Notes under the pieces: model-generated
Told to the model about the DNA's origin: nothing
What the model saw: only the letters and a program-made list of their open reading frames with translations
Database searches by the model: none
Position numbers and translations under genes: made by a program
Shown here: one piece after another, positions 3,411-6,578 of the stretch
Layout: every line of letters begins with the position of its first letter
Numbering within the stretch: position 1 is the stretch's first letter
Assembly: GCF_000341065.1 (NCBI RefSeq)
Contig: NZ_ANAX01000207.1
Span: 16,584 to 72,715, forward strand
From: Nocardiopsis halotolerans DSM 44410
Lineage (GTDB): Bacteria; Actinomycetota; Actinomycetes; Streptosporangiales; Streptosporangiaceae
DNA length: 56,132 bases
Direction of reading: 5' to 3'

Positions 3411-4619
3411 TCAGCGGATGGTCCTGCCGCCCTGCCACACCCGCAGGGTGTTCAGGCCCATCGACCAGGCGAAGGCCCCCTCGTGGTCGGCGTCCCACTG
3501 GACGAGGTCGGCCAGGCTGCCGGGGGCGAGCACGCCCCGGTCGGTCAGGCCCAGTGCACGGGCGCTGCCCATCGTGGCGGCGTGCAGAGCCTCCTGGACG
3601 GTCATCTCGAACATCGAGATGGCCAGCGAGATCACCAACGGCATGGACATCGTGCCGGACTGGCCGGGGTTGTGGTCGGTGCCCAGACCGACCGGCACAC
3701 CGTGGTCGAGCAGGGCCCGTACCGGCGGGGTGCGGCGCTCGTGCAGGGAGGTCGTGGGGCAGGCCACCACCGGTGTGCGGGTGGCGGCGAGCGCCAGGAC
3801 GTCCTCCTCGTCGGTCTCGTGCAGCAGGTCGACGGAGGAGCAGCCCAGCTCGGCGGCCATGCGCACGGCTCCGTGTCGGGGCCGTGAGCAGGCGTGCAGG
3901 GTGGTGCGCAGCCCCACGGACCGGCCCGCGTCCAGCAGCATGTGGGCGTCCTCGGTGGTGAACTGCTGGTTGTCGCAGTACACGTCGACCCCGTCGGCCC
4001 CCGCCAGTGCCGCGTCGCCGATCCAGGAGGCGGCGGTGGACACGTACTCCCCGGGCCTGCCGAAGAACTCGGGCGGCACCCCGTGCGCGGGGAAGAAGGT
4101 GACGTGCAGGCGCGGCATGCCCGGCTCCTCCTCCAGGGAGCGCAGCAGGCGCACGTCGGCCAGTTCGCCGTCCCTGGTCAGGTGGTAACCGGTCTTGGCC
4201 TCCACGGTGGTGCTTCCGGTCAGCACCCAGTGCCGGAGCCGCTCGCGGACCGCGTTGCACAGTGTCCAGGGGTCGGTGCCCCGGGTGATGGTGACGGTCG
4301 TGGAAACGCCGCCGCCCGCCGCGAAGATGTCCCCCTTGGACGCGCCCTTGGCCCACATGTTGACCTCGGCGTAGCGGTCACCCGCGTACACCGGGTGGCA
4401 GTGGGCGTCGACCAGTCCCGGGGTGATCATGCCGCCGCCGACGTTGACGACGTCGTCGACGTCGGTGAGGTCGTCCACCACTCCGGGGATGTGCTGGGGC
4501 AGTTCGGCGGCGGGGCCGATCCAGGCCACCCGGTCGTCGTTCATCAGGAGCGCGGCCTTGGTGAACAGCTCACGTCCGGTCCACAGCCGTCCGATGTTGC
4601 TGAGGAGTACCACCGTCAT
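3411..4619 (-). CDS. HutI-like (imidazolonepropionase-type) amidohydrolase with altered active site
   Basis: A 402-residue amidohydrolase whose whole length resembles imidazolonepropionase. It has the metal motif DAHCHPVYAG (His73, His75), the signature TTVEAKTGYHL (138-147), FFPAHGVPPEF (His179), LHAC with His242, and TDHNPGQS with Asp315. These supply the usual Zn/Fe ligands. In characterised HutI a Glu lies three residues after the third ligand (HADE) and a His lies in the SADHL motif; here those positions read HACS and SVDLL, so both substrate-activating residues appear changed. No hutU, hutH or hutG lies nearby. The metal-dependent hydrolase fold is secure, but histidine degradation as the role is not. 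The start ATG at 4619 lacks a strong ribosome site. Confidence 0.8.
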   Translation of the reverse strand: MTVVLLSNIGRLWTGRELFTKAALLMNDDRVAWIGPAAELPQHIPGVVDDLTDVDDVVNVGGGMITPGLVDAHCHPVYAGDRYAEVNMWAKGASKGDIFAAGGGVSTTVTITRGTDPWTLCNAVRERLRHWVLTGSTTVEAKTGYHLTRDGELADVRLLRSLEEEPGMPRLHVTFFPAHGVPPEFFGRPGEYVSTAASWIGDAALAGADGVDVYCDNQQFTTEDAHMLLDAGRSVGLRTTLHACSRPRHGAVRMAAELGCSSVDLLHETDEEDVLALAATRTPVVACPTTSLHERRTPPVRALLDHGVPVGLGTDHNPGQSGTMSMPLVISLAISMFEMTVQEALHAATMGSARALGLTDRGVLAPGSLADLVQWDADHEGAFAWSMGLNTLRVWQGGRTIR

Positions 4620-4989
4620 GGGGTTGTCCGCCCTCGCCGGTCAGATCCGCCGCTGTGGCTGCGGGACACGGTCGTGAGATGCACGGGCGAACATGGCGAC
4701 CTCGTATCTGGAGCGGTCCGACGGAGCCTGTGGGGTGGCCGTACGGCCACCGCGGTGCCGTGACGGTGGGGCTGGTGGCTGTCGCGGGAATGACGGCCAC
4801 TGGCGGCCAGTGCTCCAAAACCGTAGCCCATCCGCGGACTCCGTGTACACCTCCTCCCGAGCACGAATGCGAGTGTCCCGGGACGAAACTCGCAAGCCCC
4901 GGAGTGATGGGTGCCATGGGGAAACACCCCGAGCTGGAGCTTCCCGGATGTCGCCCGCACGGGACGCTCCCGGCTCCGGACACGGCGAA
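4620..4989. other. Gene-free spacer with three strong palindromes
   Basis: No convincing gene lies in this stretch; the short open frames on both strands have no recognisable family. It holds a perfect 18-bp palindrome GGTGGCCGTACGGCCACC (4734-4751), a perfect inverted repeat CACTGGC-G-GCCAGTG (4798-4812), and a nested structure of arms TGCGAGT/ACTCGCA (4868-4874 and 4888-4894) around GTCCCGGGAC (4875-4884). They lie upstream of the HutI-like gene and downstream of hflX, so they may be operators or RNA structures. Confidence 0.6.
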
Positions 4990-5022
4990 GGCCGGGGCGC
5001 CCTTCCGGGGGGCGTCCCGGCC
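4990..5022 (-). terminator. Hairpin after hflX
   Basis: Arms GGCCGGGGCGCC (4990-5001) and GGCGTCCCGGCC (5011-5022) pair over 12 bases with one G-T pair and a 9-base loop. The structure begins about 24 bases past the hflX stop codon on the leftward strand. There is no U-tract, as is common for terminators in this GC range. Confidence 0.55.
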
Positions 5023-5045
5023 GTGCGCGGCGCGGAGCGCGGGGC

Positions 5046-6578
5046 TCAGGCCGTGCTGGGTGTGTACTGGTCGAGTTTGCCCGCGAGCAGCTCGGGGACG
5101 AAGGCGTGGATCGCCGTGCCCTCGGCGGTGTGCTCCTCGCTGAGGATGCGCCCCTCCTCGTGCACCCGGGCGACGAGGTCCCCCCGTGAGTAGGGGACGA
5201 GCACGCGCACCTCGTACGCCAGCTCGGGCAGCGCCTCGGCGAGCGCCGTCACCAGCTCGGGCACGCCCTCGCCGGTGCGGGCCGACACCTCGATCATGCC
5301 GGGGTACCGGGTGCGCATCACCTTGAGCACGTCGGGGTCGGCGGCGTCCACCTTGTTGACCACGACGAGCTCGACCACGTCGGTGGCGTCGATGTCGGCG
5401 AACACCTCGTGGACCGCGCTGATCTGGCTTTCGGGGTCGGGATGGGACCCGTCGACCACGTGCAGGATCAGGTCGGAGTCGGCGACCTCCTCCAGGGTGG
5501 AGCGGAAGGCCTCCACGAGCTGGTGCGGCAGGTGCCGGACGAAACCGACGGTGTCGCTGAGCGTGAACGCGCGGCCGTCGGGCGTGCGGGCCTGGCGGAC
5601 GGTCGGGTCCAGGGTGGCGAACAGGGCGTTCTCCACCAGGACACCGGCGCCGGTCAGCCGGTTGAGCAGGCTCGACTTGCCCGCGTTGGTGTATCCGGCG
5701 ATGGCCACGGACGGTACCTCGCGGGTACGACGGACGTCGCGCTTGACCTCGCGGGCGGTGCGCATGTGGGCCAGCTGACGGCGCAGCTTGGCCATCTTGT
5801 CGTTGATGCGGCGGCGGTCGGTCTCGATCTTGGTCTCACCGGGACCGCGCAGACCCACGCCGCCTCCCGCGCCGCCGCCACCGGAGCCGCCCGCCTGCCG
5901 GGACAGGGAGTCACCCCATCCGCGCAGTCGCGGCAGCAGGTAGTTGAGCTGGGCGAGTTCGACCTGGGCCTTGCCCTCGCTGCTGCGCGCGTGCTGGGCG
6001 AAGATGTCCAGGATCAGGGCCGTGCGGTCGATCACCTTGACCTTGACCACGTCCTCCAGCTGGCGCAGCTGGCCGGGGGTGAGCTCCCCGTCGCAGATCA
6101 CGGTGTCGGCGCCGGTGGACTCCACGATGTCGCGCAGGTCGGCGGCCTTGCCCTTACCGACGTAGGTGGCCGGGTCGGGCTTGGAGCGCCGCTGGGTGAG
6201 TCCCTCCAGGACGAGCGCTCCTGCGGTCTCGGCCAGGGCGCTGAGCTCGGCGAGCGAGCCGTCGGCGTCGACCTGGGTTCCGCTGGTCCACACGCCGATG
6301 AGAACGACGCGTTCCAGACGCAGGGACCGGTTCTCGACCTCGGTGACGTCGGTGAGCTCGGTGGAGAGCCCCGGAACGCGGCGGAGCGCGTGACGCTCGG
6401 CGAGTTCCATCTCACCCTGGTCGGGGGCGTTGTACGGGTCGTCGTAGCGGTCGCCGCCGGTGCCCCGGGCCTCGCGGGACGCGTCGGTTGCGTTGACCCC
6501 GTCCCCGACGGTGATCGCCTCGCGGAACGCGTCCTCGGCCTCGGGCCGGGCGCTTCCGCGGGTGTCAGCTGTATTCAT
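5046..6578 (-). CDS. hflX: GTPase HflX (ribosome-splitting / rescue factor)
   Basis: HflX binds and splits stalled 70S ribosomes using GTP. It is 510 residues long. The N-terminal HflX domain holds VVLIGVWTSG and the GTPBP_N region, then a glycine-rich linker (SGGSGGGGAGGGVGLRGPGE) and a coiled segment. The G domain has GYTNAGKSSLL (G1), DTVGFVRHLPHQL (G3), VVNKVDA (G4) and SARTGEG (G5). The ATG at 6578 is preceded by GGAGGG at five to six bases, which fixes the start. The first 70 residues or so are low in conservation and acidic. In Streptomyces hflX sits beside dapF and miaA; here the glycolate genes lie between them. Confidence 0.96.
   Translation of the reverse strand: MNTADTRGSARPEAEDAFREAITVGDGVNATDASREARGTGGDRYDDPYNAPDQGEMELAERHALRRVPGLSTELTDVTEVENRSLRLERVVLIGVWTSGTQVDADGSLAELSALAETAGALVLEGLTQRRSKPDPATYVGKGKAADLRDIVESTGADTVICDGELTPGQLRQLEDVVKVKVIDRTALILDIFAQHARSSEGKAQVELAQLNYLLPRLRGWGDSLSRQAGGSGGGGAGGGVGLRGPGETKIETDRRRINDKMAKLRRQLAHMRTAREVKRDVRRTREVPSVAIAGYTNAGKSSLLNRLTGAGVLVENALFATLDPTVRQARTPDGRAFTLSDTVGFVRHLPHQLVEAFRSTLEEVADSDLILHVVDGSHPDPESQISAVHEVFADIDATDVVELVVVNKVDAADPDVLKVMRTRYPGMIEVSARTGEGVPELVTALAEALPELAYEVRVLVPYSRGDLVARVHEEGRILSEEHTAEGTAIHAFVPELLAGKLDQYTPSTA

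Follow-up and report, generated by a model that had tools for sequence, protein, structure and literature searches.

The open reading frame at positions 3411-4619 of the window, as we call the whole stretch of 56,132 nucleotides analysed here, encodes a paralogue of imidazolonepropionase (HutI) that has lost active-site residues across its entire family. We lean towards the reading that this protein, named HUTIL here, is a conserved HutI-fold pseudoenzyme that arose from HutI and acts by binding rather than by hydrolysis. That nearly all sampled genomes of the family retain HUTIL despite the lost residues suggests a changed function, which is probably non-catalytic and seems not to be histidine degradation.

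The reading frame lies on the minus strand, starts with ATG and translates into 402 amino acids; frame 1 of the plus strand contains a stop across the same interval. The gene and its relevant codons are located as follows:

3411..4619, minus strand: HUTIL, HutI-derived paralogue of 402 aa (open reading frame; E 5.7e-56 to HutI structures; TIGR01224, 284.8 bits)
4395..4403, minus strand: codons of His73-x-His75, the metal pair (His73 in 155/155 and His75 in 154/155 HUTIL rows)
4335..4337, minus strand: codon of Lys95, at a conserved Tyr of HutI (Tyr in 31/32 canonical rows; fifteen different residues in the 155 HUTIL rows)
3894..3896, minus strand: codon of His242, a metal ligand (155/155 HUTIL rows)
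3885..3890, minus strand: codons of Cys244-Ser245, at Asp-Glu or Asn-Gln of HutI (alignments and row counts)
3825..3827, minus strand: codon of Leu265, at the catalytic His of HutI (Leu 146, Ile 4, Met 2, Gly 2 and Val 1 in 155 rows)
3675..3677, minus strand: codon of Asp315, the metal/catalytic Asp (146/155 rows; Ala in 2 and Gly in 7 of the other nine)

An earlier sequence-only reading had described the protein as HutI-like, and indeed alignments with the HutI structures 2puz (E 5.7e-56), 2gok, 2oof and 2bb0 cover almost all of it. Matches to the amidohydrolase families PF07969 (63.6 bits, cut-off 29.7) and PF01979 (63 bits, cut-off 25) place it in the amidohydrolase superfamily. Against the hutI profile TIGR01224 it reached 284.8 bits, below the equivalog cut-off of 298.15; six other HUTIL members scored between 278.7 and 306.1 bits, two of them above that value. 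Counting columns against 2bb0 confirmed that all four metal ligands by which HutI is recognised are retained (His73, His75, His242 and Asp315 correspond to 80, 82, 249 and 324). Arg82, Lys95, Tyr145 and His179 fall on 89, 102, 152 and 185. Ser245 and Leu265 occupy columns 252 and 272, where HutI has Glu and His, with no gap near either, just as had been proposed. Besides these two, the window protein differs from HutI at Lys95 and Cys244. An AlphaFold2 model calculated from 32 rows had a mean pLDDT of 56.4, and most of residues 1-150 and 360-402 were below 50, a quality too low for structural conclusions. We take Arg89, Tyr102, Tyr152, His185, Glu252 and His272 (2bb0 numbering) to have functional roles in HutI, where the equivalents of HUTIL Arg82 and Tyr145 presumably hold the substrate carboxylate. 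The mechanism of HutI is reportedly the subject of two papers, Yu 2006 and Tyagi 2008, both cited in PMC13081902.

Residues were counted in 155 HUTIL, 4 sister and 32 canonical rows obtained from 244 loci, with identical rows merged; no two HUTIL rows are identical. Rows with at least 54% identity to the window protein were grouped as HUTIL and the four sisters were named by hand. Two frameshifted loci (L036 and L054) and one duplicate (L175, the same gene as L002) were left out before counting. At position 265, His was present in all canonical (32/32) and sister (4/4) rows and in none of the 155 HUTIL rows, which makes it the stronger of the two replaced-residue observations. The Glu of HADE and the His of ADHL had both been named as marks of HutI. 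The His deserves this status, whereas the Glu is not universal: 2puz, 2oof and 28 of the 32 canonical rows carry Gln, the other four canonical rows Glu. All four sisters have Glu, and the HUTIL rows show nine residues at this position (Ala 78, Ser 44, Gly 25, Val 2, Glu 2 and one each of Leu, Gln, Met and Asp). The window protein thus lacks both the catalytic His of the [AS]-x-D-H motif and the Glu/Gln following His-x-x. Since the losses are common to the whole family, they are attributable neither to chance nor to sequencing error. The neighbouring position 244 is Cys (118) or Gly (34) in most of the 155 HUTIL rows and Asn (18), Asp (10) or Glu (4) in the canonical ones. At position 95, Tyr is found in only 5 HUTIL rows. 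Ranked by site entropy from the variable end of 402 positions, it stands 361st in canonical and sister rows together and 3rd in 28 non-redundant HUTIL rows. This variability, together with the nine residues at position 245, argues against a replacement chemistry. Arg82 is invariant (155/155), Tyr145 is present in 149 rows with Phe in the remaining 6, and His179 in 145 of 155.

HUTIL might still be an imidazolonepropionase of low efficiency that uses another residue, for example His267 or Cys244, and two members (L056, 306.1 bits; L171, 303.2 bits) do exceed the TIGR01224 cut-off. That His267 could fill the site of the lost His had been raised beforehand as a counter-case. However, position 267 is His in only 106 of the 155 rows (Thr 31, Asn 12, Leu 3, Tyr 2, Ala 1), and we discarded the idea that His267 takes over from the lost His. 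The same kind of count (Cys in 118, Gly in 34 of 155 rows) led us to discard Cys244 as nucleophile; neither residue is a required substitute. Two further observations, the genome's own HutI in its hut locus and the retention of HUTIL in genomes without a urocanase match, make this explanation very improbable.

The window occupies positions 16584-72715 of contig C207. The 6.26-Mb source genome carries a second HutI on contig C313 (7310-8395), 39% identical to the window protein. It has the catalytic His, Gln after His-x-x and a score of 336.4 bits, over the hutI cut-off of 298.15. The same contig also encodes hutH, hutU (in two frames) and hutF (in two pieces, over cut-off); one weak, sub-cut-off hutF match lies on contig C11. 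The sequence-only reading was right that no other hut gene is near, as these genes and the second HutI all lie on C313, outside the window, and the canonical copy that it had suggested looking for was found within the hut locus. HUTIL has no genomic link to hutH, hutU or hutF; its neighbour is hflX. In a sample of 40 genomes of the genus, the canonical copy was detected in 38 and HUTIL in 39; the genome without HUTIL (G019) is 85% complete.

A match to the window protein at E 1e-70 or better was obtained in 149 of 150 genomes of the order, of which almost all are 90% complete or more: 146/146 in the family of the window, 3/3 in family f3 and 0/1 in family f2. In the class, where at most four candidates were scored per genome, 42 of 394 genomes matched, and G169 was the only one outside the window's family. 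A later sample of 42 family genomes gave 40 matches, the two misses being 72% and 90% complete. Eight of 150 family genomes had no hutU match at E 1e-50. In five of these, 99-100% complete (G047, G053, G089, G140 and G062), HUTIL was the sole HutI homologue at E 1e-10, and the same was seen in G680 (84% complete); G621 and G642 lack a hutU match yet carry a canonical HutI. Retention of the gene thus extends to genomes that seem to lack the urocanate route. A role of HUTIL as regulator or subunit of canonical HutI is disfavoured by the same five genomes, in which neither hutU nor another HutI was matched. Among named organisms, Nocardiopsis has the closest relatives of the window protein, with identities of up to 95%. 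One locus with 95% identity (L011, NYMS01000006.1) is titled Glycomyces fuscus TRM 49117; it shows the Nocardiopsis gene order, and the genome looks misnamed. A scan of viral contigs returned 10 pattern matches, none of them related to HUTIL.

The origin of HUTIL was addressed with trees of 51 and 62 rows, calculated by a quick method and including 15 and 58 of the 155 HUTIL rows, respectively. In the 51-row tree the 15 core HUTIL rows form one clade (SH-aLRT 100) that joins two f3 proteins with a support of 98, and canonical HutI proteins are set apart by a branch with support 100. These two nearest relatives have kept Glu245, His265 and Tyr95. The four sisters (L162, L165, L166 and L167) share the signatures KTGYHL and DHNPG with HUTIL, contain Tyr95, HADE and ADHL, and score 327-372 bits for hutI. 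As they keep every catalytic residue, the loss can be placed on the stem of the HUTIL family. Three sister genes (L162, identical with L174, as well as L166 and L167) follow the gene for formimidoylglutamate deiminase, hutF, and in f3 the genes hutF, hutU and that of an allantoate amidohydrolase are close to the sister gene. In all four genomes of f3 and G169 (of which G044 is 77% complete) no HutI other than the sister was matched; in G527 there is also a second, partial match. Context and residues of the sisters together indicate that the ancestor was an ordinary HutI. The history that we propose would begin in the order with a usual "DHNPG"-type imidazolonepropionase in a hut operon. This copy would have come to lie near hflX in the family that includes Nocardiopsis, Thermobifida and Actinomadura, where a single stem branch saw the loss of Tyr, Asp/Asn, Glu/Gln and His from the active site; the hut locus is served by another, canonical HutI.

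Loss of active-site residues went further in part of the family. Asn317 is absent in 25 of the 155 HUTIL rows, and the 62-row tree places its loss in a single event ancestral to a clade of 25 rows. Within this clade Asp315 changed at least three times, judged by well-supported branches, and four times by parsimony. Asp315 is absent in nine rows (L185, L205, L240, L241, L242, L244, L245, L247 and L248), and L247 lacks His75 as well. The Nocardiopsis rows retain Asp315. Despite the lost residues, HUTIL is still under purifying selection as strong as that on hflX. Mean pN/pS against the window, calculated as uncorrected proportions in 11 chosen Nocardiopsis loci, was 0.18 for HUTIL, 0.27 for hflX, 0.27 for malate synthase, 0.23 for holA and 0.40 for comEC. 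Pairs of genes without Asp315 gave 0.08 (L185/L240), 0.25 (L185/L244) and 0.27 (L205/L247), and pairs with L241 gave 0.28 (L242), 0.20 (L245) and 0.41 (L248). HUTIL is thus maintained without Asp315, less tightly in L248. By pseudoenzyme we mean, as a working definition, a protein whose lineage has lost catalytic residues while purifying selection continues, and HUTIL fits this definition.

The relaxed active-site positions and the one pair with a pN/pS of 0.41 could also be taken as signs that HUTIL is a relic in decay and about to disappear. Of the 80 named loci, L036 (7001-8202; Nocardiopsis eucommiae HDS5) and L054 (7001-8202; Nocardiopsis sp. CNR-923) are frameshifted, and L029 seems to be shifted close to the C-terminus. 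All three shifts may be sequencing errors; for L036 and L054 recent loss is the alternative. A relic would hardly be present in 146 of 146 family genomes of one sample with a pN/pS of 0.18, have 107 positions unchanged even in the rows without Asp315 and be preceded by a conserved promoter-like site and leader reading frame (see below). We regard this as the least credible of the explanations considered.

The sequence-only reading had proposed that the enzyme may act on a different cyclic amide. The part of this proposal that survives is that HUTIL is unlikely to be an ordinary imidazolonepropionase, in line with His265 in 0/155 rows, the HutI on C313 and the five genomes without hutU. Were HUTIL an active metal hydrolase whose substrate has changed, it would bind its metal through His73, His75, His242 and Asp315 and a carboxylate through Arg82, Tyr145 and His179, and would open a ring or amide in a way that does not need the lost Glu/Gln and His. 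The near-complete conservation of the three His (154 or 155 of 155 rows each) and of Asp315 (146), the carboxylate residues (Arg82 155, Tyr145 149 plus 6 Phe, His179 145) and the strong purifying selection all fit such an enzyme. A changed substrate predicts new conserved pocket residues and an indispensable metal Asp, and neither is seen: positions 95 and 245 vary without any new conserved residue, position 244 is divided between Cys (118) and Gly (34), and Asp315 was lost repeatedly (9/155 rows) in genes that stayed constrained. The cyclic-amide reading is therefore unsupported, and we consider a changed substrate rather unlikely for the family, possible but second best, and possible above all for the window's own lineage with its four metal ligands. 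Aminodeoxyfutalosine deaminases depend on the very His and Glu that HUTIL lacks, and this assignment was dropped for that reason.

That the lineage of the window keeps all four metal ligands is also the main doubt about the pseudoenzyme. Invariant His73, His242 and Arg82, Tyr or Phe at 145 and Asp315 in 146 of 155 rows count against it, since a useless metal site would not be expected to persist, and amidohydrolases with unusual ligand sets exist. In the tree, all losses of Asp315 fall within the 25-row clade without Asn317; they may reflect additional decay confined to that clade and say little about the lineage of the window. Of the 32 canonical HutI rows, 30 have Asp at position 315 and two have Asn, so Asp is not absolute there either; this slightly lowered our confidence in the pseudoenzyme. 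The pseudoenzyme nevertheless remains the reading that we prefer. HUTIL is predicted to have ceased hydrolysing imidazolonepropionate. It probably binds a metal ion in most lineages, through His73, His75 and His242, and perhaps, with Arg82 and Tyr145, a small acidic ligand. Most likely it would work by binding, as a scaffold, a sensor or a partner protein.

A candidate surface for such contacts is the longest invariant run of HUTIL:

4260..4286, minus strand: T112-L120, TRGTDPWTL, of which G114-T119 is the family-specific part

G114-T119 is invariant in 122 HUTIL rows, none of the 4 sisters has it, and each of its residues occurs in at most 2 of the 32 canonical rows. We infer that TRGTDPWTL is likely to form a new contact surface.

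The region upstream of the gene contains three further features:

4641..4694, minus strand: leader reading frame of 17 aa (MFARASHDRVPQPQRRI), ending 21 nt before the HUTIL gene (open reading frame search)
4820..4849, minus strand: conserved promoter-like pair TGTACA-N18-TACGGT (single exact match in the window)
5046..6578, minus strand: hflX, the usual upstream neighbour (TIGR03156, 439.5 bits)

Among 157 stretches examined, 140 contained hflX, in each case (140/140 with both genes) upstream of and on the same strand as HUTIL, in two of them more than 1.5 kb away. No hflX was seen in 14 stretches whose upstream DNA, less than 1.6 kb, is too short for a verdict, nor in L178, L179 and L190 despite more than 6 kb of upstream DNA. 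In the named loci the usual order is glcF-glcE-glcD, malate synthase, hflX, HUTIL. The promoter-like pair did not occur in any of 100 shuffles, and similar pairs are present in the aligned relatives. Between this pair and the HUTIL gene sits the leader reading frame. As such we counted ATG reading frames of 10-60 codons with a Shine-Dalgarno-like motif whose stop lies at most 30 nt before the gene start or overlaps it. They were found in 69 of 81 non-redundant HUTIL upstream regions (out of 205) and were lacking in 12, against a chance expectation of 3.0 on average and 9 at most (30 first-order Markov resamples). Control genes gave 0/49 for comEC, 0/22 for holA, 1/22 for hflX, 0/70 for malate synthase, 0/15 for glcD, 6/31 for glcE, 0/4 for glcF, 0/2 for dapF and 0/2 for miaA. 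Past its first four residues the peptide is poorly conserved, a pattern that would suit translational coupling or leader control better than a peptide product. Rfam gave no match in positions 4500-5200 of the window. In members other than those of the Nocardiopsis group, the -10-like box is followed by a conserved stretch resembling AACCGATAT.

Putting these features together, one may tentatively envisage a family-wide conversion of a catabolic operon enzyme into a near-universal, non-catalytic sensor or partner protein that binds metal or carboxylate and has acquired a leader reading frame as well as an invariant segment for new interactions; as a whole we hold this fuller version to be doubtful. 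HUTIL could conceivably be linked to HflX-mediated ribosome rescue, the sole hint being the gene order.

The series from the sisters through the loss on the stem to the losses of Asn317 and then Asp315 would show an amidohydrolase active site being dismantled in order while selection keeps the protein, and the members without Asp315 offer a natural series for studying active-site decay. The two members just over the hutI cut-off, L056 and L171, would be annotated as imidazolonepropionases despite the absent catalytic His. Presence in 146 of 146 family genomes of one sample makes HUTIL a direct target for a knockout.

Pseudoenzymes are already known in the amidohydrolase superfamily. In the CRMP/DRP proteins and the inactive dihydroorotases, selection has kept the fold after the loss of catalytic residues; these proteins derive from dihydropyrimidinase or dihydroorotase, unlike the HutI-derived HUTIL. 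We know of no HutI-derived pseudoenzyme. No paper on HUTIL was among the literature matches listed for HutI, the taxa, amidohydrolase pseudoenzymes and the HutI mechanism, and a family-wide pseudoenzyme derived from HutI is, as far as can be told, new. With HutI itself (TIGR01224; 2bb0, 2puz, 2gok, 2oof) HUTIL shares homology over nearly the whole length, the HxH pair, the third His, the Asp and the equivalents of Arg82, Tyr145 and His179, and it descends from a HutI of hut-operon context. In contrast to HutI, it has lost the catalytic His, the Glu/Gln and the Tyr, scores 284.8 against a cut-off of 298.15 bits and lies beside hflX, outside a hut operon. Another close system is the DHNPG-type sister HutI of f3, G169 and G527, which is 46-52% identical to HUTIL and has KTGYHL and DHNPG in common with it, whereas the sisters have kept HADE, ADHL and Tyr95, score 327-372 bits and have hutF adjoining or nearby.
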